DNA of 22,035 bases from a virus: the IMG/VR virus record IMGVR_UViG_3300031673_000541, positions 1 to 22,035 of that record; one strand, given 5' to 3'. The translations under genes were made by a program, and so were the position numbers. Every line of letters begins with the position of its first letter. The first letter of the stretch is position 1. Under the pieces are notes generated by a model that saw only the letters and a list, made by a program, of their open reading frames with translations, had not been told where the DNA came from and ran no database searches. Below, piece after piece: positions 2,912 to 18,892 of this stretch.

Positions 2912-3053
2912 TTTCTTAATAAAAACGTATCCATAGATAGGGATGGCATATTCTCATATTCTCCTATCGTTAACATAATAATATATTAATATAAATATAT
3001 ATTGAATTAACAAGATTAATTCATATACTATATTAGTGCCAGGATACGTTTTT
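2912..3053 (+). repeat. Intergenic element, copy A (related to copy B at 18637-18836)
   Basis: A composite element that recurs, in the same order and orientation, at 18637-18836. Shared blocks are: 21 bases ending in AAAAACGTATCC (2912-2932, 20 of 21 identical to copy B), GCATATTCTCAT (2946-2957, identical and at the same 13-base spacing), a 21-base block CTATCGT-T-AACATAATAATAT (2964-2984, 20 of 21 identical), ATATTGAATTAA (2999-3010, identical) and a right end with ATACGTTTT. In this copy the ends AAAAACGTATCC (2921-2932) and GGATACGTTTTT (3042-3053) form a perfect 12-bp inverted repeat around a very AT-rich core. An additional AAAACGTATA lies at 2901-2910. Function unknown: operator cluster, replication origin or structured leader are all possible. 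Confidence 0.75.
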
Positions 3054-3110
3054 AATACATTTGTAATACAATCCAATTATTAAAATTTATTTTGACTTTT
3101 TTTATGTTCA

Positions 3111-3135
3111 TAAGTTATTACCAGACAATAACTTA
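3111..3135. repeat. 9-bp perfect inverted repeat
   Basis: TAAGTTATT (3111-3119) and AATAACTTA (3127-3135) are perfect inverted repeats separated by seven bases. There is no following T tract, so an intrinsic terminator is unlikely. It lies about 45 bases upstream of the -35 hexamer of the promoter at 3179-3207, a position suited to a dimeric regulator. No equivalent inverted repeat is seen at this position in copy B. Confidence 0.4.
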
Positions 3136-3178
3136 CAATAAATGACAATAAAATTTAGAAAAAAAGGTTAAAAAAAGG

Positions 3179-3207
3179 TTTACATGTCACCATTTTTTGT
3201 ATATATT
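3179..3207 (+). promoter_or_regulatory. Sigma70-like promoter P1 of the replication block
   Basis: TTTACA (3179-3184), a 17-base spacer and TATATT (3202-3207). The same architecture with 17-base spacing occurs at 18893-18921 and 19585-19613, and in all three GGAACA or GGAAACA follows the -10 by 7-8 bases. A-rich sequence lies directly upstream. It overlaps the first in-frame ATG (3184) of the following reading frame, which argues against that ATG as start. Probably a host-polymerase-driven early promoter. Confidence 0.7.
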
Positions 3208-3213
3208 AATATC

Positions 3214-3888
3214 ATGGAACAAGGACAGATGGTTTTAATACCTTACGAACGGATCATTTCAACAGGTGCTGTGTATAAGATGCAACCTGGGAATGCCACA
3301 TTGGTTACTAAGGTGTGGGAAAACAAAAGCCATCAGGCATGGCTTATAGATTTTGAGGATGGGAGATTCGCTCTACCGACTCAGTATTTATTTGACAATG
3401 AAGACTTGCCAATCACAACATCAACCGAGGAGGTAACAATGGCAACGAGAAAAACAGTTAAGAAAGTGGTTGAGAAATCTGCCACAGAACCAGTCACAAA
3501 AACAGTGGGAAAAAAATCTCCTGATAAAGCTGTTTCAAGGAAACCTAAGGCTTCAAAGCCTGAAGTTACTGAGAAACCTGTTAAGGAAGTGAAGAAGAAA
3601 TCTTCTGAAAAGAAGCCACTTAGCAAATTCATTGCAGAAATGATTGTTGAAGGAATTGATTCTGATGAGAAGATAGCTGCTTCATGTCAAAAAGCATATC
3701 CTGATTACAAAGGTACATCTGCAGGAACTGTTGAATACTATCGCAAACGTATCAACGATGGCAAGATGGTTAAATCAGGATTTGAGATTCCTAAGAAACC
3801 TCATGTAGCTGTTGGTTTGCCGCTTAAGGATTCTCCTAAGACGGAAACAGCAGAGGCTCCAGTAGCAACTCGTAGGAGAAAGAAATAG
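3214..3888 (+). CDS. Lys-rich hypothetical protein with alternative internal start
   Basis: First gene after promoter P1; function not recognised. The reading frame is open from 3184, but that ATG lies inside the promoter. Candidate starts are 3214, which falls at the expected transcription start (leaderless), 3229, preceded by AAGGA at short spacing, and 3439, which has the strongest ribosome binding site (GAGGAGG). Residues 1-75 of the long form look like a small compact domain (WLIDFEDGRFALPTQYLF). From 3439 the protein is Lys/Pro/Ser-rich and probably disordered for about 60 residues (histone-tail-like). It then has a folded segment of about 55 residues (SKFIAEMIVEGIDSDEKIAA, then an AYPDYKG...TVEYYRKRINDGKM stretch) and ends in a basic RRRKK. 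The folded part could bind DNA. The next gene starts after a 5-base gap. Confidence 0.6.
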   Translation: MEQGQMVLIPYERIISTGAVYKMQPGNATLVTKVWENKSHQAWLIDFEDGRFALPTQYLFDNEDLPITTSTEEVTMATRKTVKKVVEKSATEPVTKTVGKKSPDKAVSRKPKASKPEVTEKPVKEVKKKSSEKKPLSKFIAEMIVEGIDSDEKIAASCQKAYPDYKGTSAGTVEYYRKRINDGKMVKSGFEIPKKPHVAVGLPLKDSPKTETAEAPVATRRRKK

Positions 3889-3893
3889 TAACC

Positions 3894-5207
3894 ATGCCTC
3901 ATATGTACAGAAAAAGATCAAGACAATATCAGATGGATGCGATCAAAGCAACAAACCATCTTGACCATGTTGGGTTCTTTGTGCATGTGAGGTATGGGAA
4001 AACAATAATTACTTTAAGAAGGATTCAGCAATGGGGTTTCAAATCCCCAAACCTTATTCTTTGTCCAGGGTCTGCTATACAGAGCTGGTTAGATGATTGT
4101 AAAGAAGAAGGATATTCTGTTTTAGAACTTGAAGGTCCTAAGAAACACAGGATTGAGCAACTACAATGCTCAAAAATATATGATTATTATGTCACAAACA
4201 AGGAATCTCACCTTTCAATAGGTGATGAATTAAAAACTGTTCCGTGGAATACGGTTGTTGTGGATGAATCAAGGTTTCTTGCAGGACAATCTAAGTACTC
4301 AAGATATTGCATCAATAATTTTAGAGATGTCAACCATAGGATTACATTAACAGGTACTCCAGATTTTAGGGACAATCTAGATTATTATAATCAACTGAAG
4401 TTTTTAAGACATGATATTCTCCCATACACAAACTTTTGGCATTTCAGAAATTCTGCATTCAATTGTTTTGGGTACACCATGATAATGAAGAAAAAGCATG
4501 AAGATATTCTAAAGAAAACGATATCTGAAAATTGTGTTGTTGTTGGAAGAAATGATTTCAATGGTGGCAGAACACCTGAATATCACAGAATATATGCAAA
4601 GATGCCTAGGAAACTTCAAAAAGAATATGATAAATGTGAAAGAGCATTTGTTCTTGAAGGTAAAAAAATGACTATGAAAACTCTATATGCAACTGTAAGA
4701 TTTCAATGGCTTATGAGGATGTGTGGTGGCTTCATTGATGGTGAGAATGTATGGGAAGGAAAATACAAGGTTTTAAAAAGTCTGTTTGATGATAACAAAG
4801 ATGAACAATTCGTTGTTGCATGCAGATTCAAAGAAGAAATATACTATCTGCAATCTAAATTTAAAAAGAGTGTTGCATATTGTGGCGATGTTGAAAAGAA
4901 AGAAAGACGTGTAATAATAGAAAACTTCAAACAAAAAAAGATTCAATACTTGTTTCTTATGCCACAGACAGTTGCTCATGGTGTTAATCTCGCATCAGCA
5001 ACTAATTTTGTAAGGTATTCACAACCATCAGGACATGAAATAACAGAACAATCTGAAAAACGTTTGTTCACACTGGATGATGAGAATGTGTACCACATAT
5101 ATGATATATTGGTGAAAGACACAGTTGATGAGGATGCAAGAGAATCATTTCTTAATAACGAATCTTCAAGGAATCAATTCAATAGAGCGATACAAAGATG
5201 CAGGTGA
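3894..5207 (+). CDS. SNF2/DEAD-type helicase with degenerate motifs
   Basis: A 437-residue superfamily 2 ATPase of the small phage SNF2-like type, expected to remodel or unwind DNA during replication or recombination. Visible motifs in order: motif I as VRYGKT (residues about 33-38), Ia-like LILCPGSAIQSW, motif II as VVVDESR (about 122-128), motif III as LTGTP (about 152-156), a C-terminal RecA-fold half with FVVACRF, motif V-like PQTVAHGVNLASATNFV, and motif VI-like EQSEKRLFT. The usual second Arg of motif VI (Q-x-x-x-R-x-x-R) is Thr here. The start at 3894 has only a distant GGAG; 3903 is an alternative. The 3' end overlaps the RuvC-like gene by ten bases. It lies at the head of a recombination cassette. 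Confidence 0.8.
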   Translation: MPHMYRKRSRQYQMDAIKATNHLDHVGFFVHVRYGKTIITLRRIQQWGFKSPNLILCPGSAIQSWLDDCKEEGYSVLELEGPKKHRIEQLQCSKIYDYYVTNKESHLSIGDELKTVPWNTVVVDESRFLAGQSKYSRYCINNFRDVNHRITLTGTPDFRDNLDYYNQLKFLRHDILPYTNFWHFRNSAFNCFGYTMIMKKKHEDILKKTISENCVVVGRNDFNGGRTPEYHRIYAKMPRKLQKEYDKCERAFVLEGKKMTMKTLYATVRFQWLMRMCGGFIDGENVWEGKYKVLKSLFDDNKDEQFVVACRFKEEIYYLQSKFKKSVAYCGDVEKKERRVIIENFKQKKIQYLFLMPQTVAHGVNLASATNFVRYSQPSGHEITEQSEKRLFTLDDENVYHIYDILVKDTVDEDARESFLNNESSRNQFNRAIQRCR

Positions 5208-5704
5208 AAGTTCTTAACAACACAATAACAGTTGATCCTGGCTGGAACACAGGAATGGCTTATTGGATTGGTGATTACACACCATTAGTTTTTGTTATTA
5301 AAGAACCACCAAAAAGAAAAAAAATTAAGCTGGAACCCACACGTTTGGCATATATGTTTACTGAATTCAAATCATTCTTGATGTCTAAAAAGGTGAAATT
5401 ATGTGTAATTGAAGGAGTTGAACTATGGGCAGGAAATGTGAGATCAATGACTTCTGCAAGTAGAGGTGATTTGTTTGCATTAGCATACATTGTTGGTGGA
5501 TATCTTAGCATATGTCAACAACTCGGAATAAGAACTAAATTGGTATATCCACGTGGTAACAAGGCAAAAGAAAAGATACGATGGAAAGGACAATTGGACA
5601 ATGAAGCATTAGACGAAAGGATTATGATGATAAATGGTGTCACATATAAAGAACATGTACGTGAAGCTGTAGGGATAGGGTTTTCAATAATGGGGATACT
5701 ATGA
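5198..5704 (+). CDS. RuvC-like Holliday junction resolvase
   Basis: A 168-residue RNase H-fold nuclease expected to cut branched DNA during phage recombination or before packaging. The acidic centre is visible: D13 in TVDPGWNTG (motif 1, D-P-G-x-x-T-G), E72 and E75 in VIEGVELW (motif 2), and a C-terminal H153-x-x-E156 in EHVREAVGIG, equivalent to the H/D-x-x-D-A of RuvC, with Glu in place of the final Asp. Length matches RuvC (about 160-175 residues). The start lies inside the end of the helicase gene and the stop overlaps the next start by ATGA, so the three genes are translationally coupled. A relaxed-specificity phage resolvase is the best reading; another RNase H-fold nuclease is possible. 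Confidence 0.78.
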   Translation: MQVKVLNNTITVDPGWNTGMAYWIGDYTPLVFVIKEPPKRKKIKLEPTRLAYMFTEFKSFLMSKKVKLCVIEGVELWAGNVRSMTSASRGDLFALAYIVGGYLSICQQLGIRTKLVYPRGNKAKEKIRWKGQLDNEALDERIMMINGVTYKEHVREAVGIGFSIMGIL

Positions 5705-6762
5705 AAAAGACAGTTAGACCTGACAACATAACATGGCCTGATGACTGGAGTGTTGATAAGGATGGAATGACTCAGTCAATGTATCAGGCATGGCTTGGTT
5801 GCAGAAGAGCATTGATGCTGTATCTTAATGGTTATTACAAACCTGGTCCTCCACGATCAACTCATTTCGGTAGCATGGCTCATTACACTCTTGAAAAGGT
5901 ATTTGCAACTAATAAGATACCGACTTCAAAAAGCATCATAACTCACATAGACAATTACACTGAAGCAACAATAAAGAAAGGTAGAGAAGAAGGTGTTCTT
6001 CTTGCACAAGACATATTGGAATTTGAAGCGGCTAAGGCTGAGGCTACAATGATTCAGTATTTCAGATTCTATGAAGAAGATTTCAAAACAAAGAAGTTTG
6101 AATGGACTGAACATCTATTTGAAGTTATGTACAATGGTGTAAAACATCGTGGAAAGATTGATGCTAGGTACAGAACTTTGAATAAGAAAAAATGGCTTGA
6201 TGAGCATAAAACAAAATCACAAATACGTGAAGATGTTATTCTTAAGGTGTTAAATCTTGATTTCCAGAATCAATTTTACATAGTTGCTGATGAGATAGAG
6301 ACTGGTGAAACCTCTATGGGAATGTTGTATGATATCATACGGAATACAAAAGCAAATCTTCTTAAAGGACAAACATTGTTAACATGGAAGAATGCATTGT
6401 CTTCAACTATTGAGAAAGATCCTGAACATTTCTTCAAGAGGTTTGAAGCACCATACACACCAGATCAAATAAAGATATTTAAAGGTAATCTTACAATGAT
6501 GACGAATGAAGTTAAGAATCCAGACACACAAATATATCCAAACCCATGCAGTTGTGGTGGAATGTTCACTTGTGAATATCTTGATGCTTGCTCATCTAAC
6601 TCATGTGCAAGTCTTTCACAAAAGACAGGAACACCAGCAGAACGAATGTACCATGAACTAAAAGTAGAGGAGACAAAAGATGGCAATAAGAAAGTTAACA
6701 GGAAAAACAGTGTCGAGGAAACCACCACCGCGAAGAGGATCAAAAGGAAAAGGAAAAATTGA
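5701..6762 (+). CDS. PD-(D/E)XK nuclease, RecB/Cas4-like, probable Fe-S cluster
   Basis: A 353-residue exonuclease-like protein, probably producing single-stranded ends for the neighbouring recombinase and SSB. RecB-family motifs appear in order: C34 in WLGCRRAL, H61 in FGSMAH, G151-x-I-D154, E168-H-K170 in LDEHKTKS (the E-x-K core), and Q189...Y193 in FQNQFYIVAD. Near the C-terminus C283, C285, C291, C297 and C302 occur in a CSCGGMFTCEYLDAC context; with C34 this matches the layout of AddB/Cas4 nucleases that hold a 4Fe-4S cluster. The last 30 residues are strongly basic (AKRIKRKRKN), and the bases coding for them also code for the N-terminus of the next protein. The start is coupled by ATGA to the resolvase gene. 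Confidence 0.8.
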   Translation: MKKTVRPDNITWPDDWSVDKDGMTQSMYQAWLGCRRALMLYLNGYYKPGPPRSTHFGSMAHYTLEKVFATNKIPTSKSIITHIDNYTEATIKKGREEGVLLAQDILEFEAAKAEATMIQYFRFYEEDFKTKKFEWTEHLFEVMYNGVKHRGKIDARYRTLNKKKWLDEHKTKSQIREDVILKVLNLDFQNQFYIVADEIETGETSMGMLYDIIRNTKANLLKGQTLLTWKNALSSTIEKDPEHFFKRFEAPYTPDQIKIFKGNLTMMTNEVKNPDTQIYPNPCSCGGMFTCEYLDACSSNSCASLSQKTGTPAERMYHELKVEETKDGNKKVNRKNSVEETTTAKRIKRKRKN

Positions 6763-7558
6763 ACTGGAACTACCAACAGAACCCAATGTTCCTTCCAGTG
6801 ATCTGAATGAATCTGTAATATTGCTATATGGACAGAAGAAAATTGGTAAGACAACATTGGCATCACAGTTCTCAAAGCAAATGATGCATTTGATGGTTGA
6901 ACCACAAGCTCGTGAACTTGCAATATTCCAGGCATCATGTCCTGACTATGAGCATGTTAAGGAGTATGTTGATCTTTTAACAAATAAAAGAAATAAGTTC
7001 GATGCAGTTTCTGTGGACACATTGCCATTGTTCTACAAACTTTCAATGGAGTATGCTGGCAGAGTTGAGGGATTCAAGCATCCATCTGACAATAAAGACT
7101 TTGGCAAATCATGGGGTGTTGTTCAATCATATTTTGAGAAACCTCTTATGAAACTTCTTCATTCTAACAAAGGTGTTGTGTTTCATGCTCATGAAGCTGT
7201 TGAAGAAATACAACAACGTGATGGTGAGTCATATAACCTTATTAGACCTGAGGGATCTAAGAGTGTATGGCAATTCATAAATGCAAATGTAGAGAACATT
7301 TGGTATTATCATACACGTGGCACAAAAAGATTTCTTCAGATACGTGGAGACAATTATGCATTTGCATGTGTTTCATTTACAGATAAATTTTTCACACCAA
7401 AAGGAGATCAAATCTTTTCAATACCAATGGGCAATTCACCACAGGAGGGATACAAAAATCTAAAAATAGCTTTCGAAAACAAACAAACAAAAACCTATGA
7501 GGACTTTGATGAAGTGGAAGAATCTACAGTAAGAAGATCTTCACGTAGGAAAAAATAA
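6680..7558 (+). CDS. Sak4-like RecA-fold ATPase (AAA_24)
   Basis: A 292-residue P-loop ATPase of the phage nucleotide-binding type related to Sak4 single-strand annealing proteins and RecA. Walker A is G51-QKKIGKT-58 after the β-strand VILLY; Walker B is FDAVSVDT with D113; GVVFHAHE supplies the next strand and a polar sensor. Residues 1-30 are Lys/Arg/Pro-rich and the C-terminus is acidic then basic (RRSSRRKK), both probably disordered. The start has a clear AGGAG seven bases upstream, although it overlaps the nuclease gene by 83 bases in another frame. Its position between a RecB-like nuclease and a DUF669 SSB is the usual Sak4 setting, supporting a role in homologous recombination or recombination-primed replication. 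Confidence 0.78.
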   Translation: MAIRKLTGKTVSRKPPPRRGSKGKGKIELELPTEPNVPSSDLNESVILLYGQKKIGKTTLASQFSKQMMHLMVEPQARELAIFQASCPDYEHVKEYVDLLTNKRNKFDAVSVDTLPLFYKLSMEYAGRVEGFKHPSDNKDFGKSWGVVQSYFEKPLMKLLHSNKGVVFHAHEAVEEIQQRDGESYNLIRPEGSKSVWQFINANVENIWYYHTRGTKRFLQIRGDNYAFACVSFTDKFFTPKGDQIFSIPMGNSPQEGYKNLKIAFENKQTKTYEDFDEVEESTVRRSSRRKK

Positions 7559-7592
7559 TCTCACACAAACACATAAACAAAGGAGAACAGTT

Positions 7593-8480
7593 ATGTCATT
7601 TACATCAAAACTAAAAGCATTGGATTCAAACTATGAGGATGCTAGAAAAGAGTTTGGTGATTCTACAGGAGGATTCGATCCAGTTCCATCAGGAAATTAT
7701 GTAGTTCATCAAGTCAAGGCTGAAATTGCAGAAAGTAAATCTTCAGATGCATTGCTTGTTAAAATGAAAATGAAGATTCTTGAAGGTGACTGTGAAGGAC
7801 GTATGGTATTCAATAACATGAGTATCTCATCTGAACGTGGTCCTGAATTCATTCACAAATGGCTGAATGTCATGGGAAAGAAAGTTGCTAAACTTTCAAC
7901 TGGTCTGGAAAAAGCATTAGAAGAAATATCTGCTGATGAAGAATCATCATACGCTGTTTCAGTTAAAACAAATGCTGACAATGGCATGAGCAATGTGTAC
8001 TTCAATCGTGCACTTGATGATGATGCAGCATCAACATCTACAGAAGAGACTGGTGGCCATGACTACGATCTGGATTCTATGTCATTAAGGAAACTTAAGA
8101 AGCTTATCAAGGATGAAGAACTTGATGTGAATGCAGATGATCATGAAGACATTGAAGATCTTCGTGATGCAATTGATGAAGCACTTAATGAATCTTCTGA
8201 AGCTGCTGGTGATCCAGAACCTGCTGATGAACCTGATGAAGATGAAAAACCTGCTGCACGTCGTGGTAAGAAAGAAGAACCAAAGGAAGAAGAAGATGAA
8301 GATGAGAATCTTGATGCTTTGAAAGACCTTTTTGATGCTTTCGGAATACGCGTCAATGAAGATGATGGTATGAGCGAAATAAAGAAAGCACTTAAGAAGG
8401 TGACTTTTAAGAGGAAAGACCTTGAAGGATCTGAGATAAAACTTCTTGAAGATTGTGGCTTAGGTGATAAGATAAAATAG
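7593..8480 (+). CDS. DUF669-type ssDNA-binding protein with acidic C-terminal extension
   Basis: A 295-residue protein; residues 1-140 match the DUF669 pattern (GGFDPVPSGNYVV, KMKILEGDCEGRMVF), a family usually regarded as phage single-stranded DNA-binding proteins of OB-like fold. Residues about 150-190 (SMSLRKLKKLIKDEELDV) resemble a small helix-extended-helix (SAP/LEM/Rho-N-like) module. Residues 195-235 are a highly acidic, low-complexity linker with many Asp/Glu and Lys. Residues 238-295 form a further α-helical module (LKDLFDAFGIRV...IKKALKK). An acidic tail is common in SSBs and recruits partner proteins; here it is internal. A strong AAAGGAG precedes the ATG. It stands with the Sak4-like protein and the polymerase, its likely partners. 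Confidence 0.75.
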   Translation: MSFTSKLKALDSNYEDARKEFGDSTGGFDPVPSGNYVVHQVKAEIAESKSSDALLVKMKMKILEGDCEGRMVFNNMSISSERGPEFIHKWLNVMGKKVAKLSTGLEKALEEISADEESSYAVSVKTNADNGMSNVYFNRALDDDAASTSTEETGGHDYDLDSMSLRKLKKLIKDEELDVNADDHEDIEDLRDAIDEALNESSEAAGDPEPADEPDEDEKPAARRGKKEEPKEEEDEDENLDALKDLFDAFGIRVNEDDGMSEIKKALKKVTFKRKDLEGSEIKLLEDCGLGDKIK

Positions 8481-8498
8481 GTAAGGGGTATTGGTTTT

Positions 8499-8544
8499 GG
8501 AGGGTGACAACTCATGAAAGAAAGGAACCCTCTTTTTAATTTTT
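8499..8544 (+). terminator. Possible intrinsic terminator with long loop
   Basis: GGAGGGT (8499-8505) pairs with ACCCTCT (8527-8533, one G-U pair), followed by T runs at 8533-8537 and 8540-8544. The 21-base loop is longer than usual for an intrinsic terminator. It sits in the 77-base gap between the SSB gene and the DNA polymerase gene, the largest gap in the replication block, and may set relative expression of the two. The ribosome binding site of the polymerase (AAGGA) lies just downstream. Confidence 0.4.
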
Positions 8545-8557
8545 ATCTAAGGAATAC

Positions 8558-10513
8558 ATGCAAGAAGAAATCAGAGTAATTGACTATGAAACAACTGGAC
8601 TCAATCCTTACAAGGGTGACAGGATATTTGCTTTCATTGTCACTAATCCTGAAGATTTCAAATCTGAGGTGTATCGTTTTGATTGGGGATCTAACAGAAA
8701 AAATAACATGTCTAAATTGATGTTTAATAAATACCATTCTAAAAAATACATTAAGGTTGCACACAACTCTAAATTTGAGATGGGCTTCACTGCTATGTAT
8801 TACGATGGTGTACTTCCTGAATCTACATGGGAAGATACTTTTATCATGTCAAAAATGCTTAAGAACATCTTACCACAACACAAGTTGGAATTCCTTGCAA
8901 AGTTATACTTCAGAGATCTGTACCCTGAAGAATTTGAAAGATGGGAAATGTATGATGCAGAAGTTAAAAAACATCTTACAATGCAAAAGAGATTAATGAA
9001 CAATTATCCTGACCGTGTTGAACCTGAAATCCTTGAGCCCCTTTACTCCAGTGGTGTAAAACCTTTTGTTATAGACACACCAAACTATGGTTTAGTTCCA
9101 GTTGATATTATGAATGGGTATCAAGAAGCTGATGGGGAAAGATGCAGTTTGCTTTACTTACTCTATATAGAAAAGATTAAAGCAAATAAAGACTTGTATC
9201 TTGACTATCTTAATGAGATGAGATTAATAACTACAACTCAAAAGATGGAACAAAGAGGTATGATGGTTCACGTAAGAAATGCAAAAAATCTTATAAAGAA
9301 ACTTTCAGTGCAATTGGATGAACTTCATAAAGAAAAGGTTGAAGTGTTTGGATTTGATATAAATCTTAACAGCACTGATCAAATTCAAAAGCATCTTTTC
9401 GGTTATATAAATCCAAAAAAACATGAAAAATTGGATGATATTTGGAAGACAAAAAGTCCAGCATTTAAACTTCATCATCTGACAGAGACAGCTGGTGGTG
9501 CACCTTCAGCTTCTAAAGATGACATATTGAATTTAATAGCACAGTATCCTGAAAATGAAGGTCTTGACATAATACTTAAATACAGATCATGGTCTAAAGG
9601 TGTCACAATGATCCAGTCTTACCTGGACAAGGCTGATAATAATGACATAATACACCCAAACACTAGAACAAACCAGGCTGCCACTGGAAGGCAATCAGTT
9701 ACAGATCCTAACTTGCAAAATGTATCTAAAATGGATGGCAGAAGATCTGTTTATGGTATTCCTGCAAGAGTATGCTTCAAACCTAAATCTGGGTATGTGA
9801 TGTTTCTTGGTGATTATGCAGGAATTGAGATGAGATTGATAATTGGCGCATCTGGTGAGATGGAATTGATTGAGAAACTTAATGCTGATTGGGATTATGA
9901 TGTTCATACTGATAATGGTATAATAATACTTGCTGATGAGTTTCTTAATGCTAAAAAGAATGACAAATCTTTGTTCAAAAAAATGAGAGCTAACATCAAG
10001 GATTGCACATTTGGTAAATGTTATGGTGCAAATTTCCCAACATTCTGTGGCTCTATTGAAAAGACACATGAAGAAGGTAAACCTTGTTGGGAAAGGTTCA
10101 AAGAAGCACGTCCACAACTATTCAATTTCACTCAAAACATGATGACTGAGATTAAGAGATATGGATATATCACCACAGCATTTGGCAGACAGTTACGAGC
10201 TGAAAAAGATTACTTTGCTGCAAATTACAGGATTCAGGGTGATGCCGCTGGCATTCTTAAGCGTGCACAAAACAATGTTGATGAATACATTCTTAATGTC
10301 TGGGATGGTGACTATGACAGAATGCATATGTCTCTTACAGTTCATGATGAGATAATATTTGAGTTACACAGAAGTATGCTCAATATGAAATATGATATAC
10401 TTCATGACATAACATATTGCATGACAAACATGCCTGAAATAAAAGTTCCTTTGTGTGCTGAATGGAAGCTGACAACAACAAACTGGCAAGATGCTAAAGG
10501 TATGGAAATATGA
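8558..10513 (+). CDS. DNA polymerase family A with 3'-5' exonuclease domain
   Basis: The phage replicative polymerase, 651 residues, with no 5'-3' nuclease domain. Exonuclease motifs: D9 and E11 in VIDYETTGL, N70...E74 in HNSKFEM (Glu where Asp is common), and Y188...D192 in YQEAD. Polymerase motif A is D419 in GDYAGIEMR; motif B (O helix) has R477, K481, F485 and Y489 in RANIKDCTFGKCYG; motif C is H596-D597-E598 in VHDE. F485 corresponds to E. coli Pol I Phe762, the position linked to dideoxynucleotide discrimination. AAGGA precedes the ATG. Length fits T7-like or other marine-type phage PolA enzymes lacking a 5' nuclease. The stop overlaps the next gene by ATGA, and the TOPRIM primase-helicase lies two genes downstream. 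Confidence 0.93.
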   Translation: MQEEIRVIDYETTGLNPYKGDRIFAFIVTNPEDFKSEVYRFDWGSNRKNNMSKLMFNKYHSKKYIKVAHNSKFEMGFTAMYYDGVLPESTWEDTFIMSKMLKNILPQHKLEFLAKLYFRDLYPEEFERWEMYDAEVKKHLTMQKRLMNNYPDRVEPEILEPLYSSGVKPFVIDTPNYGLVPVDIMNGYQEADGERCSLLYLLYIEKIKANKDLYLDYLNEMRLITTTQKMEQRGMMVHVRNAKNLIKKLSVQLDELHKEKVEVFGFDINLNSTDQIQKHLFGYINPKKHEKLDDIWKTKSPAFKLHHLTETAGGAPSASKDDILNLIAQYPENEGLDIILKYRSWSKGVTMIQSYLDKADNNDIIHPNTRTNQAATGRQSVTDPNLQNVSKMDGRRSVYGIPARVCFKPKSGYVMFLGDYAGIEMRLIIGASGEMELIEKLNADWDYDVHTDNGIIILADEFLNAKKNDKSLFKKMRANIKDCTFGKCYGANFPTFCGSIEKTHEEGKPCWERFKEARPQLFNFTQNMMTEIKRYGYITTAFGRQLRAEKDYFAANYRIQGDAAGILKRAQNNVDEYILNVWDGDYDRMHMSLTVHDEIIFELHRSMLNMKYDILHDITYCMTNMPEIKVPLCAEWKLTTTNWQDAKGMEI

Positions 10514-10755: not shown

Positions 10756-10756
10756 T

Positions 10757-10957: not shown

Positions 10958-13023
10958 TGGCTTCTAATGACCTATCTACTCATAAAAATCTCACAGTATT
11001 CAAGCAACATGGCTTTGTGTACAAAGGACAAACAGGCAACCAAGTATATGGTTACTCTATATTCTCAGGAAAGGACAACTTCTGGATAAACCCTGAAACA
11101 AAACAATGGGATTGCAAGAATTCAGGATTGCACGGTGGCTACCAAATGTTTCTTAAGAGTGTTAACACATTCTGTCTTGCACATATGAAAGGTGAAAAAC
11201 TTTCATGGTTAAAGAAAAAACGTGGGTTCCAAAGACAGACACTTAAGAAACATTCTGTTGGATTCAATCCAAGCACAAACAACTATGTAATCCCTGTGTG
11301 GGATGCAGCAAATGAAAATATCTGGGATCTTCGGATATATAATCCTCAATTGAAAAAGATAATGGGTACATCTGGATGCACAGTTGGTTTATTCGGATGG
11401 GATTCAATTCAACATGCAAAGAAGATTTGGTTGGTTGAGGGTGAGTGGGACAAGATGGCTATGTGGGAAATACTGTACAAATGTGACTTACTTGAGACTG
11501 AGACAGTGATATCTGTTCCTGGTGCCAACACATTCAAAACAGAATGGCATGCAATGTTTAAAGAAAAAGATGTTGTTTGTGTGTATGATAAGGATGATCC
11601 AAAAACAATGAATGGCATTGTTAGGTTAGGTGCTGGTCCTGAAGGAACATTAAAGATATTCAGAAGTTTGAAGAATATCACAAAGAATCTTTCATTCGTT
11701 CATTGGCCAGAAGATTCAAAAGATGGATACGATCTTAATGATTTCCTAATTGAAGTTAAGAATCATAAAAATGCGTACAATATGCTTGATGGTAGATGTA
11801 AATCAGAACCTCCTGTTGAGGAAAAGTTTAGGAAAGACATTGCAATTGAAGATAAGTCTGATGAAGAAATATACATCGGTGAACATGTTCCATGTGAAGA
11901 TGTCTATACTGCATACAAAAAATGGCTTTACCTTCCAGAGACAACAGTGATTGATGTACTTTACGGTGCAATGATATGCAATAGAATGCCTGGTGATCCA
12001 TTGTGGATATTCATAATTGCACCATCAGGAGCAACTAAAACTGAATTCATACTTAGTGTGTCAGAGGCTGTGAAAGTAATGGCTGTCACAACAATGACAC
12101 CTCACTCATTAATATCAGGTGCAAATTTTGCAGGTGGTGGTGACCCATCACTGATACCACGATTAAATAAAAAGAATCTATTGATAAAGGATTTCACAAC
12201 AATACTTAATATGCCACAAACATCTAGAGATGAGATATTTGGTATATTACGTGATGCTTACGATGGTAGAACTGAAAAGATGTTTGGAAATGGTGTGTTT
12301 AGGAGTTATGAATCAACTTTTGGAATAATAGCTGGTGTGACACCTGCAATTGAATTGTACATCTCTGGAAATACAGCTTTTGGTGAAAGGTTTCTTGGAT
12401 ACAGAATAAATATACCTGATTCACACATTGAAAGAATGAAATATTTGTCAGCAGCAATGGCCAATGTTGGATCATCTGAAAGTATGCACAAAGACTTAAG
12501 TGAACTTGGCAGCAGAGTTCTTCTTTATGATTACTCAAAAATACATGTTGAGATTTCTGATAAAATACGTATGAAACTTATGATACTTGCACAATGGACA
12601 TCTGTGATGAGGGGGACAATCACAAGAGATCCATATTCAAAAGAAGTTATTGCATCACCTTTCATAGAATTAGGCACAAGGTTGGTTAAGCAATACACAA
12701 AACTTCTAATGGGCATATGTCAATTCAGAAATAAGAGAGTTGCAACAAGAAGTGAATATTCAATTATTCGTGATTGTGCAATAAGCTCAATTGCACATGA
12801 TCTTATAAAGATATCAAAACTTCTTTACTTCAAAGGTAAGAATTCTCATCTTGAATACAAAGAGGTAGTTCAAAAAACTGGTCTACCTTCTGAAAACTGC
12901 AGAAGGAAAATTGAGAATCTCACTATGCTTAAAGTTGTTACCAAAAAGAAAGAAGGAATGAGCATATTTTACAAAATTAATGATGAAATTTATGACTTAA
13001 TTAACGAAGGGAACATATACTAA
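10957..13023 (+). CDS. TOPRIM primase fused to helicase-like ATPase
   Basis: A 688-residue bifunctional replication protein. Residues 1-90 resemble a DnaG-type zinc-binding region (FWINPETKQWDCKNSGLHGG) but keep only one Cys, so zinc binding is probably lost. The TOPRIM domain shows E161 in WLVEGEWDKMA and D211-K-D213 in VCVYDKDD. The ATPase half has a P-loop-like APSGATKTE (355-363), LLIKDFTTIL with D412 in the Walker B place, a strand ending in IIAGVTP, and GERFLGYR (R479, R483) as a likely arginine finger. The C-terminal 60 residues look like a winged helix (VVQKTGLPSENCRRKIENL). The KDFTTIL-type ATPase is not a standard DnaB helicase; a superfamily 3/MCM-like AAA+ relation is possible. 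Coupled by TAATG on both sides. Confidence 0.78.
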   Translation: MASNDLSTHKNLTVFKQHGFVYKGQTGNQVYGYSIFSGKDNFWINPETKQWDCKNSGLHGGYQMFLKSVNTFCLAHMKGEKLSWLKKKRGFQRQTLKKHSVGFNPSTNNYVIPVWDAANENIWDLRIYNPQLKKIMGTSGCTVGLFGWDSIQHAKKIWLVEGEWDKMAMWEILYKCDLLETETVISVPGANTFKTEWHAMFKEKDVVCVYDKDDPKTMNGIVRLGAGPEGTLKIFRSLKNITKNLSFVHWPEDSKDGYDLNDFLIEVKNHKNAYNMLDGRCKSEPPVEEKFRKDIAIEDKSDEEIYIGEHVPCEDVYTAYKKWLYLPETTVIDVLYGAMICNRMPGDPLWIFIIAPSGATKTEFILSVSEAVKVMAVTTMTPHSLISGANFAGGGDPSLIPRLNKKNLLIKDFTTILNMPQTSRDEIFGILRDAYDGRTEKMFGNGVFRSYESTFGIIAGVTPAIELYISGNTAFGERFLGYRINIPDSHIERMKYLSAAMANVGSSESMHKDLSELGSRVLLYDYSKIHVEISDKIRMKLMILAQWTSVMRGTITRDPYSKEVIASPFIELGTRLVKQYTKLLMGICQFRNKRVATRSEYSIIRDCAISSIAHDLIKISKLLYFKGKNSHLEYKEVVQKTGLPSENCRRKIENLTMLKVVTKKKEGMSIFYKINDEIYDLINEGNIY

Positions 13024-13613
13024 TGATTTGGACAAGAGCATATTTAATAAATAGAGATGATAGGAAAGATCGTCTTGAGCATTCAGACAATCAACTGAAA
13101 CTGAATGGCATAAAATACCAAAGAGTTTCAGCAACCGAATCTTCTGCTGGAATGCTGGGATGCAATGCATCTCATTTCAATGTGATGATGAAAGCGTACA
13201 CTCATGGAGGACAACCACTTATAATGGAAGATGATATAGTTATACATCAGCCACTATTTGCAGACACCATAGACTCAATACGTAAATCATTAGCACTTGT
13301 CGATTGGGATGTATTCTACTTTTACAATGATGGTGTACTTTCAAATTCTCATTCACTACACAATGTACGAAGTGGACCTTCTGCGTGTTGTCACTTCTAT
13401 GTGATAAATGCACACTCAATTGAAAAGATTATAAGGCTTCTAATGCAAATACCTAGTTCAGCCATTGATTTCCAACTAATAATGCTAAGTAGACAAGGAA
13501 AAATAAACTGTTTTTGTTCCAGTGATGTGTTGGTTAGTCAAACCAGATCATTGGGATCTGACATCAAACATAAAGAACCTAAGGAGGATCTCAATGGACT
13601 CTTCATTGACTGA
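13023..13613 (+). CDS. GT25-like glycosyltransferase
   Basis: A 196-residue protein with the pattern of family 25 (LPS-type) glycosyltransferases: N-terminal AYLINRDDRKDRLE, then GMLGCNASHFNVMMKAY (the G-x-x-G-C-x-x-S-H box) and LIMEDDIV with E69-D70-D71 as the metal/nucleotide-sugar site, followed by a VDWDVFYFYNDG strand. It is shorter than typical bacterial GT25 proteins (about 250), as phage members often are. It overlaps the primase stop by TAATG and is followed by a dUTPase-like gene, an unusual setting for a surface-sugar enzyme; the acceptor may be phage DNA, a virion protein or host LPS. The family call is moderate, the substrate is unknown. Confidence 0.65.
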   Translation: MIWTRAYLINRDDRKDRLEHSDNQLKLNGIKYQRVSATESSAGMLGCNASHFNVMMKAYTHGGQPLIMEDDIVIHQPLFADTIDSIRKSLALVDWDVFYFYNDGVLSNSHSLHNVRSGPSACCHFYVINAHSIEKIIRLLMQIPSSAIDFQLIMLSRQGKINCFCSSDVLVSQTRSLGSDIKHKEPKEDLNGLFID

Positions 13614-13923
13614 CATTTTTCAGAAGTGCTTCAATCTGCAGTTGTTGATTGGAAATCAAGAAAGAATGCAAACTCAGGAATTCAGGAATGAAATGGCACT
13701 TGCACTTCAATCAGAAATATTTGAAGCATTAGGAGAAACTCCATGGAAACCCTGGAAGAAGAATCAGAAATTTAATGTTAAAAAGTTTAAAGAAGAATTG
13801 ATTGATTGCCAATTCTTTCTAATAAACTTGATGCTGTCTGCAGAGATGCATCCTGATGAAATGTTTGAAATGTTTTGTGATAAGTATAAAGTTAATATTG
13901 AGAGACAAAGAAATGGCTACTGA
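13594..13923 (+). CDS. Dimeric-type dUTPase / MazG-like pyrophosphohydrolase
   Basis: A 109-residue all-helical enzyme that probably hydrolyses dUTP (or another dNTP) to the monophosphate and pyrophosphate. The metal-binding pattern is visible: E41-x-x-E44 in LQSEIFEALGE and E68-x-x-D71 in KEELIDCQFFL, with the C-terminal NIERQRNGY that is characteristic of type 2 (dimeric) dUTPases, plus WKPWK in the region that contacts the base. Start chosen at 13594 because AAGGAGG lies six bases upstream; longer in-frame starts run deep into the glycosyltransferase gene. The overlap with that gene is 20 bases. Supplying dUMP to ThyX and keeping uracil out of DNA fits the neighbours. Confidence 0.7.
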   Translation: MDSSLTDIFQKCFNLQLLIGNQERMQTQEFRNEMALALQSEIFEALGETPWKPWKKNQKFNVKKFKEELIDCQFFLINLMLSAEMHPDEMFEMFCDKYKVNIERQRNGY

Positions 13924-14137
13924 AATAAATGATTTAGATACTACACATGCACATTTGTATGATGGCACTAGAGGACAAGGACCATTCAATGGGAGAGTAG
14001 TTAAGATAGCAATTCCTGATCAAAAGAAAATAATTGCAAGATTTAGATCACATGTGTACACATACATAAGAAAAGGTATTTACGGTTTACATACAGCTAA
14101 TTTTGTTCTACAATCAAAGAAGGAGATTCAAAAATGA
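13913..14137 (+). CDS. Small hypothetical protein
   Basis: A 74-residue protein of unknown function starting at 13913 (GAGAGACAAAGAA upstream); an earlier in-frame ATG at 13856 would overlap the dUTPase-like gene more. It has a polar N-terminus with a GTRGQGPFNGRVVKIAIP stretch and a basic helical C-terminus (RSHVYTYIRKGIYGL). The end is coupled by ATGA to the deoxyribosyltransferase gene. Conserved synteny would be needed to give it a role. Confidence 0.5.
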   Translation: MATEINDLDTTHAHLYDGTRGQGPFNGRVVKIAIPDQKKIIARFRSHVYTYIRKGIYGLHTANFVLQSKKEIQK

Positions 14138-14565
14138 AATGTTACATCGCGTCTGGATGGTTTACACCTGCACAACAGAATGATTTGGATAACATTAAGT
14201 ATGTTTTAAAACAGCACAATGTTGAATACTTCTCACCAAAAGATGAATGTGAATGTCCTCCTGATGCAGGTCAACAGCATCAAAATGATGTATTCTTAGC
14301 CAACCATCACGCAATATACCAATGTGACTTCGTAGTGGCAAATACACGAGACAAAGATATGGGTACTTTGTTTGAAGCTGGTGTAGCATTCGAAATGGGG
14401 AAACCTATAATATATTATTGTGAAGGATTAGAGGGTCCATTCAATCTTATGCTTGCACAATCAGGTGTCGCTGTCGCCACTAACTATCATGAGATTTGTA
14501 AACATGTAAAAGGGATATCAGAAGACATCAATTACATTTCACTTACACAAATGAGGATAGAATAA
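14134..14565 (+). CDS. Nucleoside 2-deoxyribosyltransferase
   Basis: A 143-residue enzyme that moves the 2'-deoxyribosyl group between nucleobases, or hydrolyses deoxynucleoside monophosphates in related members. The fold is recognisable: CYIASGWF at the N-terminus, YFSPKDE after the first helix, a CDFVVANTRDKDMGT strand, and the active-site Glu E81 in D75-M-G-T-L-F-E-A-G. The C-terminal NLMLAQSG (N104) supplies the residue donated across the subunit boundary in this family. AGGAG lies upstream and the start overlaps the previous stop by ATGA. It sits between a dUTPase-like and an HD nucleotidase-like gene, suggesting nucleotide salvage or the making of an unusual nucleotide. Confidence 0.85.
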   Translation: MKCYIASGWFTPAQQNDLDNIKYVLKQHNVEYFSPKDECECPPDAGQQHQNDVFLANHHAIYQCDFVVANTRDKDMGTLFEAGVAFEMGKPIIYYCEGLEGPFNLMLAQSGVAVATNYHEICKHVKGISEDINYISLTQMRIE

Positions 14566-15071
14566 TGAAAAAAGAATTAAAAGATTTTTTAAACACAACC
14601 TACAAGATGAAGTCTCTTATACGGTACAACAATACACCTCGTCTTGTTGATGAGTCAATAGCTGAGCATCAATACTTTGTGGCTTTGATAGTTTATAAAC
14701 TGTATGATGATTACAAATTTGACATGAAGATAGCTCTTCAAATGTCATTGTTCCATGACATACCTGAAATCATGTTGAGTGATGTCCCAAGTAACACCAA
14801 GAGGATGTTTCCTGAAATATCCGATGCATTACGAAAGAATCAAAAGAAAGCATCAGATATGATTGATTCTACAATGACACCATTGATAGAAGACTATGAG
14901 AATCTTGCAACTGATGAGGCATTGGTTGTTCATTTAGCAGACATACTATCTATAATCCAGTACACAACACAAGAGGTTCATTTAGGAAATAAGTATATGG
15001 AACCTATTCTAAAAAACACCACAGAGATGATAGAAGATCTCTTCAAAAAAATGGAAGGAATAAAGAGATGA
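14565..15071 (+). CDS. HD-domain 5'-deoxynucleotidase-like protein (YfbR family)
   Basis: A 168-residue HD phosphohydrolase. The metal ligands are visible: H35 in DESIAEHQY, H64-D65 in LFHDIPEIM, and D126 in VHLADILS; E68 is the likely general acid/base and R20 in LIRYNNTPR is in the substrate-binding position, with Tyr after it where YfbR has Trp. YfbR-type enzymes dephosphorylate deoxynucleoside monophosphates; the phage dATPase DatZ belongs to the same broad group, so the substrate is not fixed by motif alone. The start follows GAGGATAGAATA and overlaps the deoxyribosyltransferase stop (TAATG); the end is coupled to the kinase-like gene. It probably adjusts the dNMP pool together with those neighbours. 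Confidence 0.8.
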   Translation: MKKELKDFLNTTYKMKSLIRYNNTPRLVDESIAEHQYFVALIVYKLYDDYKFDMKIALQMSLFHDIPEIMLSDVPSNTKRMFPEISDALRKNQKKASDMIDSTMTPLIEDYENLATDEALVVHLADILSIIQYTTQEVHLGNKYMEPILKNTTEMIEDLFKKMEGIKR

Positions 15072-15493
15072 ACTCGAAACCAATATTTTTCGAAGGCATT
15101 GACAGAGTAGGTAAGACATCTGTCATGAAAGAATTCAATAAGATTACTAAATTCCAGCATCTATGCTTTGACAGAGGTCCTATGTCATACGCAGTGTATG
15201 GCGAATTGAATTCAAAAGACAGAACACCATTGACATCTTTCAAGAACATTGACAAGATTATGAAAAATTCAATTTCTGTGTACCTGTTTAATAGTGATGT
15301 TGAAGCAATTGAGAAAAGATGTTGCAAAACATGTCATACAGATTTTAACATACTGGAGCACATGAATTGTTTTGAAGAATGCGTACTTAATCTCAAAGAT
15401 TCTGGTCATGTTGTGATTGAGTTGGATGTGGAGAATCTTACAATCGAGGGTGTGTGCAACTTGCTAATTCTTGAATTGGAGAAACTGAAATGA
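15068..15493 (+). CDS. Thymidylate kinase-like P-loop dNMP kinase
   Basis: A 141-residue P-loop kinase expected to phosphorylate dTMP or another dNMP. The P-loop is G10-IDRVGKT-17 in FFEGIDRVGKTSVM, and D35-R36 in CFDRGPMSYAVYG matches the DR motif that contacts the nucleotide. A VYLFNSDVEAIEKRC strand follows. It is much shorter than bacterial thymidylate kinase (about 210 residues), so the lid and part of the base-binding region are reduced; substrate cannot be assigned. AAGGA lies nine bases upstream and the end overlaps the next gene by ATGA. Confidence 0.72.
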   Translation: MNSKPIFFEGIDRVGKTSVMKEFNKITKFQHLCFDRGPMSYAVYGELNSKDRTPLTSFKNIDKIMKNSISVYLFNSDVEAIEKRCCKTCHTDFNILEHMNCFEECVLNLKDSGHVVIELDVENLTIEGVCNLLILELEKLK

Positions 15494-15756
15494 AAGAACC
15501 AAAAGCAGTGCGGATGCTAATGTCCAAAAAGTTACAAATCATAATTACCTGTCCAGAGTGCCCGATTTCACCTAACAAACTTGGTGGAGTTAAGAAAACA
15601 GCATGCATGGAATTGAATAAAGTTCCTGTCCCTGGAACAAACAATAAAACTTTGAAGAAAACTAAGGTATGTGAGTATTATGAACCTGATTCTTTACGTA
15701 AGGTAAATACATCTGATGGCACATTAATTGATTTAATATTATGTAATTTTTTATAG
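15490..15756 (+). CDS. Small Cys-containing hypothetical protein
   Basis: An 88-residue protein not recognised. ITCPECP (C21, C24) followed by C39 and C61 (KVCEYYEP) resembles the small phage proteins in which a CxxC pair, a later Cys and a terminal C-x-x-Y-x-P bind zinc. The residues between are basic (VKKTACMELNKVPVP). It is coupled by ATGA to the kinase-like gene and precedes the GT-A glycosyltransferase. A second in-frame Met at residue 9 is possible, but no better ribosome binding site is seen. Confidence 0.5.
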   Translation: MKEPKAVRMLMSKKLQIIITCPECPISPNKLGGVKKTACMELNKVPVPGTNNKTLKKTKVCEYYEPDSLRKVNTSDGTLIDLILCNFL

Positions 15757-15764
15757 GGGAAAGT

Positions 15765-16607
15765 ATGAAATTTAATGACACACTTGTAGCGATACCATCA
15801 AGAAACAGAGTAGAGCTTCTGTCAAAAACACTTGAAGATTTCCGTGAAACATGGAATGATGACATTGCTGTTAATTTTCAAGGTTACACAACTTCAACAA
15901 TAAAACGTTTTGATGAAGTACATTGCTTACAGTACATTGAATCTCCTGCAATCAACACAGCACATGCCAAGATGAGATTAATGCAAGAGTATGGATGTCA
16001 GTATAAATACATTATATTCATTGACGATGATTCACATTGTAGCTTATGTAAATGGGAAACAGAATTCGGAAACAAAGATTCCAATATCATGATAAACAAT
16101 ATGAAAAGGCTTATTCATATTCTACACACAAATCCTAGAATTGGTGCTTTGGCTCCATATCAATCTGCATTTTTCAGATTCATACGAGATTCTGCTGAAA
16201 AGAATGGTGTGAATGTTTCAAGGAGTATAAGAGCTGCAAATATGATTGCTGTAAGAACAGATCTTTACACTAAGCATAAATGCATATGGGATGATTCGTT
16301 AGACATACATGAAGATTTCGATTTCAATCTTCAGATTCTAACAAAATCTCCTTTTGAAGTATGTGAAACAACATTATGCAAATACTCATCAAGAACAAAG
16401 ATGGGCACAGGTGATGGTGGGATACCTAAAAGAACCTACAAGGCAAAGAAACAAGAATGCATACAAAAACTTAAAGAGAAATGGGAATCCACTGGACTGA
16501 TATCTGTAAGTTCTAAAGGGACTATATTGTTCAAGCAAAAAAATCTTGACAGAGACAGATTTGAGATATTTGTTGATCCCAAGAAAGTACCTTCATATGC
16601 CACTTAA
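15765..16607 (+). CDS. GT-A fold glycosyltransferase (GT2/TET-associated-like)
   Basis: A 280-residue GT-A glycosyltransferase. VAIPSRNRVELLSKTLED is the nucleotide-sugar binding start, YIIFIDDDS (D87-D88-D89) the metal-binding DxD, and HEDFDFNLQIL the catalytic-side acidic motif. The opening PSRNR and the ED-x-D-x-x-x-Q segment remind me of the phage TET-associated glycosyltransferases that modify hydroxymethylated bases, but no TET/JBP dioxygenase is in this window and GT2 enzymes with other acceptors look similar. GGGGAAAG precedes the start. The gene lies between nucleotide-metabolism genes, not in a surface-sugar cluster, which makes DNA or a nucleotide a reasonable acceptor to test. Confidence 0.7.
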   Translation: MKFNDTLVAIPSRNRVELLSKTLEDFRETWNDDIAVNFQGYTTSTIKRFDEVHCLQYIESPAINTAHAKMRLMQEYGCQYKYIIFIDDDSHCSLCKWETEFGNKDSNIMINNMKRLIHILHTNPRIGALAPYQSAFFRFIRDSAEKNGVNVSRSIRAANMIAVRTDLYTKHKCIWDDSLDIHEDFDFNLQILTKSPFEVCETTLCKYSSRTKMGTGDGGIPKRTYKAKKQECIQKLKEKWESTGLISVSSKGTILFKQKNLDRDRFEIFVDPKKVPSYAT

Positions 16608-16860
16608 TCAAAAATGCATTTGCACAAGCAACTACCACCATCCTGATTGTGTATCTACAGAATGCATTCATTGTGGCGATAAGAAATATGCAATGATGAT
16701 ATCTGATGCCTTTGAGCATTTTGGCATAAGCACTGAACTTTTTGTTCTTGGATTCCATTGTCAAAACTGTGGGACATTGGTCCAGGGTAAATTATTGAGT
16801 ATGTTACTAATAAAACAATGTCCGAGTTGTCATAACAAACTAACAAGAGGAGGATTCTAA
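16597..16860 (+). CDS. Zinc-ribbon protein
   Basis: An 87-residue protein with four Cys pairs: KCICTSNYHHPDCV, ECIHCGDKK, HCQNCGTLV and QCPSCHNK. Spacing fits two zinc ribbons or a treble-clef pair, with His residues also available. The start at 16597 overlaps the glycosyltransferase end by 11 bases and has only a weak A-rich ribosome binding site; a start at 16546 would overlap more. It ends in TAATG with thyX, so the two are translated together. Role unknown: nucleic-acid binding or a structural partner of a neighbouring enzyme. Confidence 0.6.
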   Translation: MPLNQKCICTSNYHHPDCVSTECIHCGDKKYAMMISDAFEHFGISTELFVLGFHCQNCGTLVQGKLLSMLLIKQCPSCHNKLTRGGF

Positions 16861-17798
16861 TGACAAAAGATAATCACATGCCTTTCCCATTTAAAAGGAA
16901 ACCTGAACACATACAGTTTCCGATGGACGTGAATTACGAAAAACCAGGTGAAACGGTGTATTATGATTCCCATAATAACCTAAAACTGCACACACTTGAC
17001 TATCCTAGAGGTGACTTTAGAGGGAGATGTGTTGAAATGATGCTGTCTACCTGGGCTGATATTCCAGTTCAGACTCTTTTATTGAAGACAGAATTTGTGT
17101 ACAGGAAGTTCAGAGAGATACTCGAAATGAAAGTTTTGCCTAACTCATTAGAACATTTACGATTCCAATTTAAGATTGAAGGATTGACATTAATTGAGGT
17201 TACTCACCTACTTAGGCATAGGTCTCTTCAATCGATACATGCACAATGTTCTGCTGATAGATTCTTACAAGATGACTCAGTCTTTATACCATCTTCAATC
17301 AAAAATTCTGCTTTTGCAGATGAATACAAAAAAGTAACTGAAGAGGCAAAAGACTTGTACTGGAAGATGATAAAATCTGGTAAAGTATCATTGCTTGATT
17401 CAAGGTATATACTCACAAGGAATCACAGATACTTCTATTATTTTGGATGTGATTTAAAAACTGCAATTGGTTTTATCCACCAGAGAAAGTGCACACAGGT
17501 ACAACCTGAAATGGATAATGTATTGGCACATTTAATGCACAATTCTATTGCTACAATCATTCCTGAGATAAGAGATGTTGTATCATTGAATTGTGATTCA
17601 AGGTGCTTTTATGTAAAATCAGAAAGTGAAGATTCTTCACGTGTGTACATGCCTGACAAAGTGCATGAGGAGTTAATAAGAACCAGATACGGTGATGACT
17701 CAGTACGTTTAGAACCTGAGTATTATCTACATAACAAAAAAAGATCTGAAATGGGTGTTGCATTTAACCCACAGGACATATCTACAGAACCACTCTAG
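16860..17798 (+). CDS. thyX: FAD-dependent thymidylate synthase (ThyX), atypical motif
   Basis: A 312-residue flavin-dependent thymidylate synthase that makes dTMP from dUMP with methylenetetrahydrofolate and FAD. The signature is LLRHRSLQSIHAQCSADRF: R119-H120-R121 as usual, but the following part is longer than the standard RHR-x7-S and reads S-IHAQCS-ADR, placing S131 and R134 two residues later. The second half keeps the ThyX layout with SRYILTRNHRYFYYF, IHQRKCTQVQPEM and IIPEIRDVV. GAGGAGG gives a strong start. It is longer than most bacterial ThyX (about 220-260). The upstream dUTPase-like and downstream dCMP deaminase genes supply dUMP. The altered motif leaves room for another one-carbon reaction on a pyrimidine nucleotide. 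Confidence 0.82.
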   Translation: MTKDNHMPFPFKRKPEHIQFPMDVNYEKPGETVYYDSHNNLKLHTLDYPRGDFRGRCVEMMLSTWADIPVQTLLLKTEFVYRKFREILEMKVLPNSLEHLRFQFKIEGLTLIEVTHLLRHRSLQSIHAQCSADRFLQDDSVFIPSSIKNSAFADEYKKVTEEAKDLYWKMIKSGKVSLLDSRYILTRNHRYFYYFGCDLKTAIGFIHQRKCTQVQPEMDNVLAHLMHNSIATIIPEIRDVVSLNCDSRCFYVKSESEDSSRVYMPDKVHEELIRTRYGDDSVRLEPEYYLHNKKRSEMGVAFNPQDISTEPL

Positions 17799-17803
17799 AG
17801 ATA

Positions 17804-17885
17804 GGCTAGATCACTTCTGGATGTATCTAGATTGTGTATAGGTTATATAACCCCCATCTAGAAATGAACCAGAAGTGATCTGGCT
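17804..17885. repeat. Large nested inverted repeat / stem-loop between thyX and dCMP deaminase
   Basis: Three nested inverted repeats. Outer: AGATCACTTCTGG (17808-17820) is a perfect match to CCAGAAGTGATCT (17869-17881), extendable to 17804/17885 with two G-U pairs (17 bp). Middle: TCTAGAT (17826-17832) with ATCTAGA (17856-17862). Inner: the 12-base palindrome GGTTATATAACC (17841-17852). No T tract follows. The structure starts six bases after the thyX stop. It could be an RNA-processing or stability element, a regulator-binding cruciform, a replication signal or a terminator of unusual type. Confidence 0.8.
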
Positions 17886-17944
17886 GATGTCTGGATCAAA
17901 CATGACTATTAACTGTGATGAAACAATTACATGACAGGAAAAAT

Positions 17945-18412
17945 ATGGCAATTTCAACAATAAATGACATACATGCACTGGCTACACAAATGTCTATGTA
18001 TGCTACATGTGATAGATTGCATGTTGGTGCTGTGCTATTTGATGATCTTGGATGTGTGCTTGGCAAGGGATGCAATAAATCTCCTGAGAATGATGTTTCT
18101 GCTGATGTACAATGTGACACCCATGGTCATTTGGTAAATGACAGTGGTGGATGCATACGAACTATACATGCAGAAATGGATGCTCTTGTTGATGCAATTC
18201 GTAATCATAGATATTGTTATAGCTCAAATTTATACACCACACATATGCCATGCTACTATTGCTCAAAGACACTTATTCATTTGAACATACGATTGGTGAT
18301 ATATGAACATGATTATGTAAGTAAGAGTTCGTATGGCAGTGGCAGAAACTTACTTGAAAAATACAAAGTTAAAGTTATTTCATTGAAAGAATGGATTAAA
18401 GAATATGAGTAA
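17945..18412 (+). CDS. dCMP deaminase
   Basis: A 155-residue zinc-dependent deaminase converting dCMP to dUMP, the ThyX substrate. CDRLHVGAVLFDD (C22 onward) is the N-terminal signature, H75-A-E77 in RTIHAEMDAL gives the first zinc ligand and the catalytic Glu, and C103-x-x-C106 in MPCYYCSKTL the other zinc ligands. LYTTHMPC and a terminal YEHDY match the dCMP/ComEB family, and extra Cys/His residues (C43, C57, H60, H62) may hold a second zinc as in T4 dCMP deaminase. Start placed at 17945 because AGGA lies just upstream; GTG 17915 or ATG 17918 would also be in frame. The 3' end overlaps the next gene by eight bases. Confidence 0.9.
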   Translation: MAISTINDIHALATQMSMYATCDRLHVGAVLFDDLGCVLGKGCNKSPENDVSADVQCDTHGHLVNDSGGCIRTIHAEMDALVDAIRNHRYCYSSNLYTTHMPCYYCSKTLIHLNIRLVIYEHDYVSKSSYGSGRNLLEKYKVKVISLKEWIKEYE

Positions 18413-18632
18413 ATTAAAAAAGTACTGGCGATGGATTTCTAATGTAATTTATCTCTACCTTTTCCAGTGCTACAAGAAGACAATTGAGAATTATGCGTGG
18501 TATGTTCAGCATGAAATGCATTATGGAAAAGTCCCTGAAGGATCATTGTTTCATGCTAAGAAAGAACTGACATTATCATGGGCAAAATTTCTATTGGAAC
18601 TTATGAACATTTTCTACAATCCAGTAGAATGA
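18405..18632 (+). CDS. Small hypothetical protein, possibly membrane-associated
   Basis: A 75-residue protein of unknown function overlapping the deaminase gene by eight bases. Basic residues at the N-terminus (SKLKKYWRW) precede a short aromatic/hydrophobic helix (ISNVIYLYLFQCY), which could associate with a membrane, though it is short for a true transmembrane segment. A second amphipathic segment (WAKFLLELMNIFY) lies at the C-terminus. It is the last gene before the copy B intergenic region. Confidence 0.45.
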   Translation: MSKLKKYWRWISNVIYLYLFQCYKKTIENYAWYVQHEMHYGKVPEGSLFHAKKELTLSWAKFLLELMNIFYNPVE

Positions 18633-18892
18633 AAACTTTCTTATTAAAAACGTATCCGCTTAATGGTATAGCATATTCTCATCATTATCTTGAACTATTA
18701 ATGTAATCAAGAACTTGATTCTTTCGTAAACCTATTCTCTATCGTAAACATAATAATATAATAATATTAATAAATATTGAATTAAAAATATTAATATATG
18801 CTATCCCTATATGGAAATACGTTTTGTATACGTTTTGACAATTATTGACAAAACAGCATGGAAAAATACTTTAAAATAAATGTAAAAAAACC
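18633..18892. other. AT-rich non-coding intergenic region (copy B region)
   Basis: Holds copy B of the intergenic element and the upstream A-rich part of promoter P2. Relative to copy A it carries about 50 extra bases (18683-18738) with small inverted repeats (TCTTGA/TCAAGA at 18688-18712 and ATCAAG-aa-CTTGAT at 18706-18719). After the element there are two TTGACA words (18834-18839 and 18845-18850). No credible reading frame is seen. Confidence 0.6.
18637..18836 (+). repeat. Intergenic element, copy B (related to copy A at 2912-3053)
   Basis: Same ordered blocks as copy A, in direct orientation: the 21-base block ending AAAAACGTATCC (18637-18657), GCATATTCTCAT (18671-18682, same spacing), CTATCGT-A-AACATAATAATAT (18739-18759), ATATTGAATTAA (18775-18786), and a right end with two inverted ACGTATT-type words, AATACGTTTT (18816-18825) and GTATACGTTTT (18826-18836). 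The right arm is less perfect than in copy A but doubled. It is followed by promoter P2 about 57 bases downstream. Confidence 0.75.

Follow-up and report, generated by a model that had tools for sequence, protein, structure and literature searches.

Two related intergenic elements were found to bracket the replication block of the virus. The favored interpretation is a pair of DNA sites that would be bound by protein and would most probably serve as replication origins, as oriL and oriR do in SPP1 (probability roughly 45%). The window analyzed was an entire IMG/VR record of 22,035 bases, the main genes of which all lie on the + strand. Element 1 (W1, 2912-3060, + strand) lies in the gap that separates the tail genes from the replication block, and element 2 (W2, 18637-18832, + strand) follows the replication and nucleotide genes; they sit in the two largest intergenic gaps of the window, initially listed at 352 and 345 bases. 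According to Pfam and PHROGs, the block between them encodes an SNF2-type helicase, a Holliday junction resolvase-like protein, a PD-(D/E)XK nuclease, an AAA protein, an SSB-like protein, a family A polymerase, a primase/helicase, a dUTPase, and ThyX. The original prediction had placed the elements directly before and directly after this block, and this placement was confirmed.

The relatedness of the two elements, claimed in the same prediction, was also upheld. When the 22-kb record was searched, two matching segments of W1 and W2 were returned, one of 72 bp with 87% identity (E 8.6e-20) and one of 46 bp with 80% identity (E 2.5e-7). A repeat search returned 2964-3020 and 18739-18795 as 89% identical over 57 bp, with a further match of 76% over 58 bp. 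Local alignment of both whole intergenic regions scored 118, against a mean of 56 and a maximum of 97 in 300 dinucleotide shuffles; hence, the similarity exceeds what AT-rich composition would give by chance, and the possibility that shuffled sequence would score as well was discarded. The anatomy described earlier needs two changes: W2 is about 55 bases longer than W1, the extra bases lying 3' of the GCATATTCTCAT block, and the element ends form inverted repeats that had gone unremarked (AAAACGTATCC...GGATACGTTTT in W1, imperfect in W2). The simple inverted-repeat score was reached by 28 of 200 shuffles in W1, which is not striking, and by 6 of 200 in W2, which is modest.

Each element has an AT-rich core, located at 2964-3020 in W1 (CTATCGTTAACATAATAATAT..., + strand) and at 18739-18795 in W2 (+ strand). 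Among 60-bp stretches across the whole window, duplex stability was lowest at 2975-3034, at the W1 core, and next lowest at 18739-18798, at the W2 core (z 4.9 and 4.7). The same measure was applied to phage lambda as a control, where the known origin was not prominent and its best window ranked only 104; low duplex stability alone therefore supports an easily melted stretch and not an origin, since by this measure origins are not distinguishable from AT-rich intergenic DNA of other kinds. GC skew did not change at W1 or at W2 in the window.

The octamer AAACGTAT is concentrated in the same two gaps. Eight copies are present in the window, 0.35 being expected, and seven of them fall within the gaps, where a mean of 0.11 was obtained when only the two gaps were shuffled; since the octamer was picked after inspecting these regions, on which about 15 separate tests were tried, these enrichment statistics are descriptive. 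The copies, considered putative half-sites, lie on the + strand at 2902-2909, 21 bp before the next one, and at 2923-2930, the left end of W1, the right end of which carries an inverted copy (3044-3051, - strand). In W2, the left end carries a copy at 18648-18655 (+ strand), and the right end carries an inverted copy at 18817-18824 (- strand) and a second one 11 bp on, at 18828-18835 (- strand). The seventh copy (18898-18905, + strand) is found beyond the element, in the spacer of a promoter-like site described below. Neighboring octamers, near copies counted, are spaced by 21, 11, 10, and 20 bp. Between element 1 and the promoter-like site that follows it, a dyad TAAGTTATT-7-AATAACTTA was read directly at 3111-3135 and aligned with a similar one at about 4526-4552 of L004, the closer of the two relatives presented next.

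Closely related replication blocks were found in L004 of the 51-kb genome G001 (63% identity in the polymerase) and in L019 of G002 (50%). No other close relatives were detected by alignments of the helicase-primase and the polymerase against viral contigs, nor with the first gene of the block, in genome contigs, or in phage and plasmid records. L004 carries related elements in the two matching slots, L1 at 4332-4498 (+ strand, the counterpart of W1) and L2 at 19876-20030 (the counterpart of W2). L1 has the same orientation as W1 (shuffle z 7.8), and L2 is inverted: the comparison of L1 with L2 gave z 8.3 on the minus strand and 1.0 on the plus strand. L2 was likewise found on the minus strand by a profile of L1 only (E 1.2e-5) and by a profile of W1, W2, and L1 from which L2 had been left out (E 2.1e-5). 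The comparison of W2 with L2 was mixed, the plus strand scoring higher (z 5.9) than the minus strand (3.0) in an alignment that includes the promoter region. The W1 and W2 profile matched the L004 copies weakly (E 0.075 and 0.21), and the claim of conservation thus leans partly on position. All three copies of the octamer in L004 fall in its two gaps, a count of three also attained by 3 of 100 whole-sequence shuffles; they stand as an inverted pair at the two ends of L1, as in W1 and W2, and at one end only of L2. The L004 element cores rank third and fourth by low stability in L004. In the more distant L019, no significant similarity to the element was found in the left slot, and the contig ends before the right one. 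Conservation among homologues, on which the earlier proposal had been made to depend, accordingly holds for the pair in one relative and fails for the left copy in the other.

The elements are known as four copies from two genomes, and no further copies were found in the window, G001, or G002. A covariance model searched over 25 loci returned no new copies, its four strong matches being its own training sequences. Scans of IMG/VR with a pattern for the core gave no match; those with ACGTATCC...GCATATTCTC gave ten, none with a recognizable element on reading; and those with AAACGTATCC-N-GGATACGTTT gave two, one within a coding frame (L084) and the other unlike the element beyond the arms (L085). 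Within the block, two glycosyltransferase-like genes (13023-13613 and 15765-16607; GT25, and a weak, sub-threshold TAGT match) have no homologue in G001, and it could be guessed that they serve DNA base modification. A nucleoside 2-deoxyribosyltransferase-like gene (14134-14565) adjoins a YfbR-like 5'-nucleotidase gene, a pair that may point to altered nucleotide metabolism. A long hairpin (17794-17895; 27-nt arms at 81%, RNA fold z -5.8) separates thyX from the dCMP deaminase gene, and L004 has a palindromic TGTATACGTATGTATACA at 18918-18940, upstream of thyX.

Among known systems, the closest likeness is to SPP1, compared by its published description, in which two origins about 13 kb apart, each with repeats and an AT-rich unwinding element, are bound by one protein (PMC6316719). 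Two similarly organized sites are likewise present in the window, 15.7 kb apart, and also in L004, with short repeats adjoining an AT-rich stretch and one site near the replication genes, as in SPP1 (PMC6316719). The two systems differ in that oriL lies inside gene 38 and both sites are intergenic here, in that the SPP1 repeats are direct and the octamers here are mostly inverted pairs, and in that a counterpart of gp38 was not identified. The lambda origin also combines repeated binding sites, putative here, with an AT-rich tract (PMC7466680); nevertheless, it is a single origin with four 18-bp iterons inside the initiator gene O, whereas the present sites are two, intergenic, and built on 8-bp repeats, and a lambda-type origin was rejected because both elements lie outside genes.

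We infer that W1 and W2 are the same kind of cis-acting DNA site, at which a sequence-specific protein would bind the AAACGTAT half-sites flanking the easily melted core. Occupation of the half-sites at both ends would open the core, and the opened core would allow loading of the phage replisome encoded between the sites. The same protein would probably also contact the early promoter-like site P2, and P3, through the octamer or near copy in their spacers, which could couple replication to early transcription. A possible, although weak, candidate for this protein is the product of the first gene of the block (3214-3888, + strand), for which a basic linker and a C-terminal three-helix domain (pLDDT about 80) were predicted; it had no Pfam or PHROGs match and no significant PDB fold match. 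A homologue is present in G001 and was not detected in G002, a co-occurrence with the element that is weak, being based on three genomes.

Operator function is a close rival of origin function, and both readings, already put forward in the original prediction, stand as the two best. Here, a phage regulator at AAACGTAT would control the early promoters to the right, by looping or by occlusion of P2 and P3, with no role in the start of replication; this was considered possible, and less probable than origins. The same promoter type had been predicted downstream of each element, and this was borne out as a pattern match, TTTACA-17-TATATT occurring at 3179-3207 (P1, + strand) and 18893-18921 (P2, + strand), both consensus matches only, with a third site, TTTACG-17-TATATT, at 19585-19613 (P3, + strand, repeat family D2). 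In L004, too, a promoter-like site lies 3' of each element, read directly from the sequence in the case of L1; this favors an operator, as do the octamer in the P2 spacer, the near copy GAACGTAT, one mismatch from AAACGTAT, in the P3 spacer, and half-site spacings compatible with helical phasing. Nevertheless, neither P1 nor the two L004 promoters have the octamer in their spacers, the distance from element to promoter varies from roughly 60 to 125 bp, and a core kept at 89% over 57 bp would be superfluous for a simple operator. In plasmid Rep iteron systems, the same short site is used at the origin and at an early promoter; AAACGTAT is similarly present at the elements and in the P2 spacer, and no Rep protein was found here. 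A further idea, given a very slim chance, is an orientation-free paired boundary site, at which one protein would bridge both elements, close the replication block off in a DNA loop, and link its copying with early transcription.

It is unlikely that the elements act as structured RNAs, or as RNA leaders or terminators forming hairpins in a transcript. The forward-strand folds did beat the shuffles in W1, W2, and L1 (z -4.6, -3.1, and -4.7), slightly better than the reverse strand, but L2 folded on neither strand (z -1.3 and -1.1), and inner-arm pairing (p 0.73, 0.16, 0.007, and 0.39 in W1, W2, L1, and L2) was significant in L1 only. Inner-stem covariation looked convincing by eye and failed the shuffle test, and covariance folding of the homologues, suggested earlier as a check, gave an unfavorable RNAalifold covariation term (+1.19) and no support for a conserved RNA; a structured RNA family with compensatory changes in all copies was rejected on these results, and no Rfam family matched. 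A classical intrinsic terminator with a 10-bp stem and a T run (L004 4299-4323) immediately precedes L1, with no promoter-like match between, and nothing similar was found before W1. The failure of L2 to fold, the pairing limited to L1, the covariation term, and this terminator favor a DNA site over an RNA, and the inverted L2 also fits a DNA site better than a strand-specific leader. The leader function proposed earlier was unsupported, as the elements lie upstream, and not downstream, of the recognized promoters. Still less probable is that they are remnants of small mobile elements, or recombination sites that allow the block to move. Terminal inverted repeats, TAATA on both sides of W1, and an orientation that differs between genomes speak for it, as does gene content: the genes on the right-hand side of element 2 (18978-22035) all lack a homologue in G001, so that shared gene content stops at this element. 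On the other side, the target duplication is absent at W2 and L1, the searched genomes hold no more copies, and the identical two slots are occupied despite divergence to about 60% protein identity. An MITE-like element was rejected on the duplication limited to W1 and the copies confined to two syntenic slots, and site-specific excision sites on the lack of a conserved direct orientation. As the L004 copies are inverted, recombination there would invert the block and not excise it, and the earlier idea of module excision, for which no other copies were found, is poorly supported.

If W1 and W2 are origins, they would supply a concrete pair of start sites open to testing, together with an octamer, in a phage group for which the searched collections contain almost no relatives; they would also be a further example, next to SPP1, of replication genes flanked by paired origins. 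As operators, they would supply the sequence by which the early genes are controlled. For origins and operators alike, the inverted copy of the relative constrains the mechanism.
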